Positions 7,256 to 9,117 of a DNA stretch of 23,716 nt are shown here, in pieces; position 1 is the first letter of the stretch; each line of letters starts with the position of its first letter. This DNA is from a virus. Location of the stretch: IMG/VR virus record IMGVR_UViG_3300044510_000015, positions 1 through 23,716 of that record. One strand, written 5' to 3'. A program made the position numbers and the translations under genes. Below the pieces are notes generated by a model that was given only the letters and a program-made list of their open reading frames with translations, was not told the origin of the DNA and searched no databases.

Positions 7256-7837
7256 TTAGTTTCTGCCGGGGTATAGTGCAGCCGGGTTTCGTTTGCGATA
7301 GTTTCGTACTGCTCTGTCGTACTCTTTGATTCCGAGCCCACCAAAATTCTTTGGTGCACGGTACCCAGGGAACTGGTTTTCAATCTTGTTAGCAAGCAGT
7401 CCTTTGCGTTCTCCCATTGCCCGAAGCACCAGCCCGATTAGGGCCTGTTCTCGTGCGGAAGCCTGTAACTCCTCCTCAGCACCGTAGTGCTTTGGAAACC
7501 CATACGACCATTCCTTATAGGGCATGGATGCCGTGTGCGCCAACTCATGAATGGTAGTTTGAATAGCGTCCTGCCTAAGTCCTTTACTTCGACGCTTGCC
7601 TCCGTTGATTAGGTTCGAGGCAGTATACTGATCCATCGTAATATTCTTAGGGGTATACCAACTGACGTACGCAGCGGCTCCTGCCGGATCTCGAATTCCT
7701 CCACGAGTATTTGAGACGGCGACATTTTTTGGAACAGGAATCCCATATGACCGCATGATAGCTGCGATGGTGTCCAACTTACCTTGCAGGAGACGGTCTC
7801 GGGGGTTGTCCCGGTTAAGCCTACCGTCTCGGGCCAT
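7256..7837 (-). CDS. HExxH metallopeptidase-like protein
   Basis: This 193-residue protein has HELAH at residues 97-101, the zincin metal site. EEELQASARE at 121-130 offers a possible third ligand. It has no evident signal peptide or membrane segment. As the last gene of the structural and lysis operon it may be a protease or a cell-wall peptidase; the motif alone does not fix the substrate. ATG 7837 has AGGAG nine bases upstream and overlaps the previous gene by 17 bases. The coding sequence is somewhat A+T-richer than its neighbours. Confidence 0.72.
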   Translation of the reverse strand: MARDGRLNRDNPRDRLLQGKLDTIAAIMRSYGIPVPKNVAVSNTRGGIRDPAGAAAYVSWYTPKNITMDQYTASNLINGGKRRSKGLRQDAIQTTIHELAHTASMPYKEWSYGFPKHYGAEEELQASAREQALIGLVLRAMGERKGLLANKIENQFPGYRAPKNFGGLGIKEYDRAVRNYRKRNPAALYPGRN

Positions 7838-8252
7838 GGGAATGAACTCCTGATACGTGGATGTGGAAGTCGTGCGACTTGTCTTTGGGGTAGTTCTTGA
7901 ACGAGTGCCAGTATGGGTACTCTCGGGACCAGATACGATTACCAAGAATCACGTAGTTGATGTTCAGTTCCCGGTAGTTTTTTACAAGCAGCTGGGCAAA
8001 CTTCCTGGCAATGAGGTAGTTCCACCCGAGGAACCTGAACCGATCCCGCCGCCCGAGATCAAACGCATGTGCCGGATAGTATCCGTGATCCCCTGGCTTG
8101 TTGGCGTAGGTGCCCAGGTCCGTGAACCCGCGTTTGCGGCCCATCGAGTAGGCCAGCCACAGTGTAGGATCGAGGGAACCCCAGCCCTGAGCGGGCTGTA
8201 CCAGTGCCCCGTGCTTGTCGAGGTACCGCTTCTTAAGCTGTGCGTAGGTCAC
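7821..8252 (-). CDS. M15-like peptidoglycan peptidase (putative endolysin)
   Basis: This 143-residue protein has HAFD (His62, Asp65) and, near the C-terminus, HDFHIHV (His128, His130, His132 region). That arrangement resembles M15/VanY-like zinc peptidases, which cut the peptide bridges of peptidoglycan. The first His-Asp spacing is shorter than the classical HxxxxxxD, so the subfamily is uncertain. GTG 8252 is chosen because AGGAGG lies five bases upstream; GTG 8258 would sit inside that site. It lies after holin-like and TIM-barrel genes, which suits a lysis role. Confidence 0.65.
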   Translation of the reverse strand: MTYAQLKKRYLDKHGALVQPAQGWGSLDPTLWLAYSMGRKRGFTDLGTYANKPGDHGYYPAHAFDLGRRDRFRFLGWNYLIARKFAQLLVKNYRELNINYVILGNRIWSREYPYWHSFKNYPKDKSHDFHIHVSGVHSHGPRR

Positions 8253-8254
8253 TG

Positions 8255-8938
8255 TCACCTCCTATTGAACTCAGACAGGGCATCCCAGTCTTCAGGTCTC
8301 ATGGTCTCCGCCAACCACACCCAGTAGCCGGGGTAGTCAGCGAGTTTATACTTGTCGATATATTCCTTAGCTGGGAAGTCCCAATAGACGCCAATGACCG
8401 GCTGTGTATTGGGCCATCCAAGGAACCGGGCCGTTGCGTCCAGTCTCTCTGGACTAACGCTCGGGCTGCTCTGGTTCACATAGGCCTCGGTAAGGCAGTG
8501 GAACCCCGCCTCGATTACGGGACGACACATCTCTTTGTCATAGCCCGACGGGCCTGCGCCGAGTCCCCAGAACGTGGTGACAACGGCAGCGGACATGTCC
8601 GGGTACCATTGGCGGAACGATGTTACAATGCCTTCCCAGTCTTCATATTGCTCAGCCTGGGCGATATAGTGTTCGCCGTTAGCCTCTGATAGAGCCTTCT
8701 CGGGGGAGCCTACATAGGGATCGGATTCCCACACACCAAACGTTAGACCGCGAGCTTTGCACTCCGCGCGCAGAGCCGCTGCCAAGGGTCTGTTCTTCGG
8801 ATCATCCCACTGTAGGGAGATGTGGCCGAAGCCTGCCTCCTGTGCCTTTCTCGCAATGGTGGCAGGCTCCGAGCCAGGGAAATCCTTCCCTCCATTGTAC
8901 AGACCCCAGGCCAGGAACAGCCCCGGCCTTACGGGAAT
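8255..8938 (-). CDS. TIM-barrel enzyme, probably made as a -1 frameshift extension of the preceding gene
   Basis: The frame is open from just after a TGA at 8957-8959 down to 8255. The coding-like part begins with RPGLFLAWGLYNGG and has repeated beta-strand/acidic endings (HISLQWDD, FGVWESDP, CLTEAY, VIGVYWD), typical of a TIM barrel such as a glycoside hydrolase. It has no ATG, GTG or TTG before TTG 8785, which would delete the first strands. A -1 slip at CCCTTTA in the upstream gene (8929-9117) would enter at ATT 8938 and give a 287-residue fusion. GTA 8932 (overlapping the stop as GTAA) and CTG 8920 are alternative starts. The exact enzyme class is not recognised. Confidence 0.72.
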   Translation of the reverse strand: MPVRPGLFLAWGLYNGGKDFPGSEPATIARKAQEAGFGHISLQWDDPKNRPLAAALRAECKARGLTFGVWESDPYVGSPEKALSEANGEHYIAQAEQYEDWEGIVTSFRQWYPDMSAAVVTTFWGLGAGPSGYDKEMCRPVIEAGFHCLTEAYVNQSSPSVSPERLDATARFLGWPNTQPVIGVYWDFPAKEYIDKYKLADYPGYWVWLAETMRPEDWDALSEFNRR

Positions 8939-8944
8939 AAAGGG
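8908..8944 (-). promoter_or_regulatory. Programmed -1 ribosomal frameshift signal
   Basis: On the - strand, the zero-frame codons GCC CCT TTA contain the heptamer C CCT TTA (8944-8938), which fits X XXY YYZ. Eight bases follow (8937-8930), then an 8-bp hairpin: AGGCCGGG (8929-8922), a six-base loop, and CCTGGCCT (8915-8908), with one G-T pair. Spacing and stem fit known -1 signals. The zero frame stops at 8929, only seven bases after the slip site, and the -1 frame is the TIM-barrel frame. Confidence 0.75.
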
Positions 8945-9117
8945 GCGACCGCCGCCTCAAGCTTGCTAAGGCGGTCCTGGGTCTCGTTGTGCCCCTCGAT
9001 CAACGTCCCCAACGTACGGGCGCGCTTGTCCCACGCTGCCGTGTACTGGGGATGCAGTTCTTTCTCGCGCAGTGCTGCCGTCAGAACCCCGTTCTGAAAG
9101 CCAATCTTCTCGGCCAT
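8929..9117 (-). CDS. Small coiled-coil protein, zero-frame product
   Basis: This 62-residue soluble protein begins MAEKIGFQNGVLTAALREKE and ends with a short heptad-like helix before APLFP. No family is recognised. The ATG overlaps the holin-like gene stop as TAATG and has no own ribosome binding site, so translation is coupled. Its last codons carry the -1 frameshift signal. Ribosomes would thus make this short form and a minority long form bearing the TIM barrel. The helix could let short and long forms assemble together. Confidence 0.72.
   Translation of the reverse strand: MAEKIGFQNGVLTAALREKELHPQYTAAWDKRARTLGTLIEGHNETQDRLSKLEAAVAPLFP

Follow-up and report, generated by a model that had tools for sequence, protein, structure and literature searches.

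In the window, the whole stretch of 23,716 nucleotides of phage DNA analysed here (IMG/VR record IMGVR_UViG_3300044510_000015), a -1 ribosomal frameshift very probably fuses a TIM-barrel domain to the C-terminus of a small coiled-coil-like protein, judging from the sequence and its relatives. One mRNA would give rise to two proteins: most ribosomes would finish the 62-aa protein (ending VAPLFP), while a minority would slip back by one base, tRNA-Pro and tRNA-Leu moving from CCU UUA to CCC UUU. The slip would be aided by the rare UUA codon, by a GAGG 10 nt upstream and perhaps by a hairpin. Slipped ribosomes would then read into the barrel frame, yielding a fusion of about 290 residues with the coiled coil first and the barrel second.

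Putative slip site, reading frames and possible stimulators

The small gene, whose ATG overlaps the stop codon of the upstream gene, ends with GTC GCC CCT TTA TTC CCG TAA (Table 1). The sequence thus bears out the initial annotation, which placed CCCTTTA in the zero frame with the stop seven bases on. The same annotation identified the -1 frame with that of the barrel, without a usual start codon before TTG 8785, and this is also confirmed: on the minus strand, the -1 frame stays uninterrupted from 8956 until its stop at 8255, and TTG 8785 is its first ATG, GTG, or TTG. Only ATT and CTG codons are found near the N-terminus of the domain, and another plausible start for the barrel is absent in this phage. 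One claim had to be corrected, namely that the barrel frame looks coding from about 8932: it starts at the slip, as the homology to the barrel relatives begins at the 'PF' of CCC TTT, i.e., at the slip itself.

Table 1. Features around the putative slip site in the window.
Feature	Positions	Strand	Remarks
Slippery heptamer C_CCT_TTA (-1)	8938..8944	-	X XXY YYZ in zero-frame phase
Zero-frame stop TAA	8929..8931	-	6 nt past the heptamer; stop from the 7th base on
-1 frame, predicted TIM-barrel domain	8255..8944	-	229 residues from the slip; stop 8255-8257
Small coiled-coil-like protein, 62 aa, MAEKIGFQ...VAPLFP*	8929..9117	-	Zero frame; homologues in five further lineages
GAGG, Shine-Dalgarno-like	8955..8958	-	10 nt upstream of the heptamer
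Candidate stimulatory hairpin	8908..8929	-	8 bp, one G-U, 6-nt loop, 8-nt spacer
Holin-like protein, 57 aa	9117..9290	-	Directly upstream; 51% identical homologue upstream of the cassette in L025
Next gene, 145 aa, DHGYYPAHAFD...HIHVSG	7821..8258	-	Resembles the M15/LAS peptidoglycan peptidase metal-site pattern (H..D..H.H)

In the C-terminal half of the small protein, a hydrophobic 3-4 spacing (L36, L39, H43, T46, L50, L53, and V57 in the window) suggests a short coiled coil that would end just before the slip.

On CCCTTTA, re-pairing on UUU would leave a UUA-reading tRNA with a wobble mismatch of the kind accepted at HIV-type sites; on CCCTTTC, the heptamer found in related phages, both tRNAs re-pair well. 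When all 64 heptamers were tested in E. coli, C_CC.U_UU.A,.G, and.U belonged to the set exceeding 0.10% frameshifting without stimulators, and C_CC.U_UU.C was singled out for high-level frameshifting, H_HH.U_UU.Y being among the most efficient classes (PMC4066793). The A-site codon TTA is the rarest leucine codon in the window's long ORFs, with four occurrences in 6,097 codons.

In all six phage lineages found to carry this arrangement, a GAGG precedes the slip by 4-17 nt (in L034 as read from its sequence). It falls within 24 nt upstream in each of the five lineages with an in-phase heptamer, against a background of 8-13% per 24-nt segment of coding positions; part of this conservation may reflect a conserved Leu-Glu. 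The 8-nt spacer (8937-8930) and the 8-bp hairpin (8929-8922 with 8915-8908) are present as initially described. Compared with shuffled sequences, the hairpin reaches z values of -1.32 and -0.67, and 20% of the coding segments of the same genome fold as stably. Across the lineages, the post-slip structures rank among the stable 2-32% of background segments and are only mildly stable, a weak tendency. As background sequence folds nearly as well, the hairpin was dropped as a main argument. Of the signal whose conservation was to be checked, the heptamer is conserved in phase in five divergent lineages; the hairpin differs in sequence between them and shows no more than a mild gain in stability.

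Relatives with the same arrangement and the predicted barrel

Searches of IMG/VR, in which distant relatives of the phage were found with tail, adaptor, and capsid proteins, yielded five further phage lineages (13 contigs) in which a member of the small-protein family is followed by a downstream domain in a different frame. All the sequences are metagenomic contigs, and the lineages are few. Four of the five carry CCCTTTC in phase just before the stop codon, with an open -1 frame, so that an in-phase heptamer (CCCTTTA or CCCTTTC) directly precedes the stop in the window, L008, L022/L023, L033, and L035-L043. The downstream domain is homologous to that of the window in five of the six lineages, and in none of the six are the two parts encoded as one continuous protein.

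Between its portal gene and its capsid region, L008 encodes a protein homologous to the 62-aa one (44% identical in the alignment). The gene ends with CGC CCT TTC TAA, i.e., with CCCTTTC in phase and an immediate stop, and the -1 frame continues for 211 codons without a stop. In a scan for such endings on open frames, covering the loci gathered by that stage, the window and L008 were the sole pair of conserved genes; the remaining matches, judged by eye, were apparent spurious frames overlapping other genes. L022 and L023, separate contigs of one lineage found by scanning with the small-protein alignment, share the ending GCC CCT TTC CCG TTC CGG GGG TAG, and their -1 frame encodes a domain homologous to the window barrel, with which that of L023 shares 31% identity over 225 columns (E = 3e-20) from 'PF' onwards. 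Scanning with the barrel then gave L033, in which a tandem CCCTTTCCCTTTC ends a 70-aa gene, as well as L034 and the nine contigs L035-L043. In these nine, a 115-aa gene ends with GCC CCT TTC CCC ACG CAA TGA, and the barrel is in the -1 frame.

L034 departs from this scheme. At L034:4706-5609 (+), the small gene ends with CGC CCC TTT CCG TAA: CCCTTTC is one base out of phase, and the barrel is in the +1 frame relative to the small gene. Three explanations may apply: ribosomes truly shift +1 on CCC-U, they re-initiate at ATG 5025, or the sequence is wrong by one base. With the heptamer out of phase, the +1 relation, and the ATG, the route to the barrel may therefore differ there.

The small-protein profile finds all six lineages (E = 7e-19 or better), and the barrel profile finds five, L008 being the exception. 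As these profiles were built from the same sequences that they match (save for L008, which lies outside the barrel profile), they show consistency rather than independent discovery. At L008:4652-5508 (+), the same small protein and slip site precede a -1 domain for which neither the profile nor related comparisons detected homology to the other barrels, suggesting a swappable downstream domain. No relevant match was returned, at the thresholds used, by tblastn searches of 50,697 phage records with the barrels of the window, L023, L033, and L038, the L008 fusion, or the L025 small gene and holin-like gene, nor any match by two scans of genome contigs with the small-protein alignments.

The label 'TIM barrel', given by the initial annotation, is supported by structure prediction. 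The AlphaFold2 model, computed with seven sequences, has eight strands that alternate with helices and close into an eight-fold barrel (mean pLDDT 75.5, pTM 0.78). Foldseek matches it with a probability of 1.00 to many TIM barrels, at TM values of about 0.5-0.6. These include sugar epimerases, O-GlcNAcase, PslG, IGPS, and PdxJ and, among viral models, several GH5-like proteins. Sequence searches of Pfam, PHROGs, NCBIfam, and the PDB gave nothing convincing for either the barrel or the small protein. Membership of a known glycoside hydrolase or lysozyme family (GH25, GH5, or others) was considered and rejected: the fold class alone agrees, with no sequence match to a family model or a solved member. 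The model supports a TIM barrel that belongs to no known family. Such an uncharacterized family would be missed or truncated by gene finders, which would take the internal TTG as the start and lose the first strands.

Numbering the barrel from the 'PF' of the slip, which forms the first two alignment columns and is invariant in 7/7 rows, the invariant acids are D47 and D48 (after strand 2), E98 (after strand 4), E153 (strand 6), and E213 (after strand 8). In the model, these residues would line the mouth of the barrel, and such conserved acidic residues make a glycosidase or another enzyme plausible.

Other routes to the barrel

The start codons available near the slip bear on whether a frameshift is needed. 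No usual start is found near the N-terminus of the domain in the window, L023, L033, or L008. L023 has no ATG, GTG, TTG, CTG, or ATH until codon 21; L033 has none of these within 26 codons of the slip and no ATG, GTG, or TTG until codon 60; the L008 domain has no usual start before codon 20. In L034, ATG 5025 is found at codon 6, seven nt past the stop, and in L038 an ATG at codon 5 overlaps the stop (caATGAcc in L035-L043), without an SD-like sequence. A frameshift is therefore the natural reading in at least three lineages, is possible in L035-L043, and is of the +1 kind or absent in L034. The initial annotation had named an ATG or GTG in place of the heptamer as evidence that would speak against its interpretation; none is seen among the lineages, L035-L043 carrying both heptamer and ATG. 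The frameshift that it proposed is supported by two features of programmed -1 sites: a X_XXY_YYZ heptamer phased to the zero frame within the overlap, found in the window and four other lineages, and a downstream frame conserved as protein and startless in the window, L023, and L033.

The main rival, unlikely overall, is termination at TAA 8931-8929 followed by re-initiation in the barrel frame, at a non-canonical codon (ATT 8938 or CTG 8920/8914), which would produce two separate proteins. An AAGG located 6 nt before CTG 8920 would suit it, yet a start at this codon would cut off part of the first strand. The ATG near the stop of the small gene in L034 and L035-L043 means that two separate proteins may arise in those lineages, whereas L023 and L033 lack near starts at the domain N-terminus, and the in-phase heptamer of five lineages is left unexplained. 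Re-initiation is thus a possible route for L034 and L035-L043 and a poor one for the window.

The heptamer recurs beyond chance, as judged by keeping each protein and resampling synonymous codons at the usage of its genome, an in-phase heptamer being sought in the last 25 codons. It arises at a frequency of 0.66% (0.007) for the window and of 0.17, 0.075, 0.27, and 0.089 for the other four in-phase lineages. The product over the five is 2e-6, an approximate figure and no strict probability, since the lineages share ancestry. The small proteins are 13-58% identical to that of the window, so silent retention of the heptamer by descent is unlikely. Retention of the zero-frame C-terminal 'PF(P)' could have protein-level reasons, which counts against the frameshift.

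Both frames are under purifying selection in L035-L043, with dN/dS values of 0.07-0.21 for the small gene and 0.01-0.05 for the barrel, the wrong-frame control being reversed. Across the slip, none of 16 third positions varies in these contigs (64 of 20,000 permutations); this suppression of synonymous variation is weak support, because the same alignment holds another, equally long invariant run (of 19). A sequencing or assembly error, or a decayed gene, would turn the two frames into one broken gene. It fits the metagenomic origin of the contigs and the +1 relation of L034, which would vanish with one C fewer, but is highly improbable given the same arrangement in 14 contigs of six lineages and the selection on both frames where measurable. 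Equally improbable is transcriptional slippage on the CCC/TTT runs, which would result in the same fusion, but for which runs of three or four bases are too short (the A or T runs known to cause it are far longer) and which would not require the heptamer to keep its register with the codons, as it does.

Known systems and genome setting

Most known cases of frameshifting in phages concern tail chaperones or extensions that add a domain to a capsid or tail protein. To these, ribosomal frameshifting at the slip site would add a conserved, mobile module, present in several unrelated, uncultured phages, in which a coiled coil gains an enzyme-like barrel and one stretch of mRNA gives a short form and a rarer long form. 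It would also be a predicted means of setting enzyme stoichiometry.

The nearest parallel in logic is the group of Ig-like and carbohydrate-binding extensions (SPP1 and 936-phage tail proteins/TpeX, A2 head protein, T3/T7 gene 10, Listeria PSA), which likewise combine a short product with a minority frameshifted form bearing a C-terminal domain (PMC5009743, PMC6669499). Different phages use -1 or +1 shifts for this, and the extensions are, according to a review, apparently indifferent to -1, +1, or no frameshift (PMC5009743, PMC6669499). In those systems, a major capsid or tail subunit is extended by an Ig-like, CBM, or other domain, whereas the cassette described here, found at varied genome places, has a coiled-coil-like base of 62-115 aa and a TIM barrel. 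The tail assembly chaperones G/GT likewise involve a -1 slip, close to where a small gene ends, into a downstream frame that overlaps it; unlike that assembly chaperone pair, the cassette is not beside a tape measure gene, and its downstream product is a TIM barrel. An identity with G/GT was rejected, as PHROGs, Pfam, and NCBIfam gave no convincing match and the window neighbours are holin-like and peptidase-like. In stoichiometry, a parallel may be drawn with two-polypeptide endolysins (LysP7951 with its 1:5 complex, CTP1L, LysIME-EF1), in which a single locus yields unequal numbers of a short subunit and of an enzyme-bearing form (PMC9430671). These rely on same-frame internal starts that keep the C-terminal part, whereas a frameshift here would keep the N-terminal part.

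The initial annotation knew of no programmed -1 shift for a lysis-region enzyme, which is too strong, because a prediction paper counts lysins among the genes known to contain frameshifts, the underlying cases being untraced (PMC10885494). No case combining phage frameshifting with a glycoside hydrolase or TIM barrel was found in the literature. Frameshift extension of phage proteins is known; as far as found, a TIM barrel thus appended to a coiled coil is new.

The window record also encodes a SU10-type capsid protein, a family A polymerase, and an NlpC/P60-type virion protein. Size and hydrophobicity suggest that the 57-aa protein upstream of the cassette is a holin, and the product of the 145-aa gene downstream may be an M15/LAS-like enzyme, given its metal-site pattern. 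In L034, the cassette is followed by a 42% identical homologue of the latter, which gives a sub-threshold match to PG_binding_1. Elsewhere, the cassette is followed by an NlpC-like gene in L041 (by eye, the Pfam match being absent), a terminase in L025, and a Dam-like gene in L033 (by eye), and it follows the portal gene in L008. With such differing neighbours, the cassette therefore occurs in varied genome contexts, favouring lysis or structural neighbours; the 'lysis-region' placement of the initial annotation holds for the window, L034, and L035-L043, and not for all the other lineages.

The coiled coil may form an oligomer bearing few barrel domains, and the target of the barrel may be a glycan, with the barrel either part of a lysis complex or decorating the virion. 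A broader reading, put forward tentatively, is that of a mobile phage cassette in which the balance between plain and barrel-bearing subunits is set by programmed frameshifting, mostly -1 but +1 in one lineage or more, the barrel being a glycan-active member of a new family and the mixed oligomer serving lysis or the virion.

Two polymerase genes were observed alongside. In the window, the family A DNA polymerase is split (353-2355, +): the N part, 353-1315, ends with TRTGRMASGGAEA* and the C part resumes with INFQNIPRTQKDVKQAF in a different frame. About 290 nt separate the conserved polymerase motifs TRTGRMASGGAEA and INFQNIPRTQKDVKQAF, with a 64-aa ORF inside (1424-1618). Rfam and tRNA scans of the window, including this region, were empty. 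AAGGAGG lies 7 nt before an ATA that is a possible start of the C part. At L041:1837-4170 (+), in the L035-L043 lineage, the DNA polymerase carries a fused uracil-DNA glycosylase domain at its N-terminus (Pfam UDG, E = 5e-16), and its gene directly precedes the cassette.
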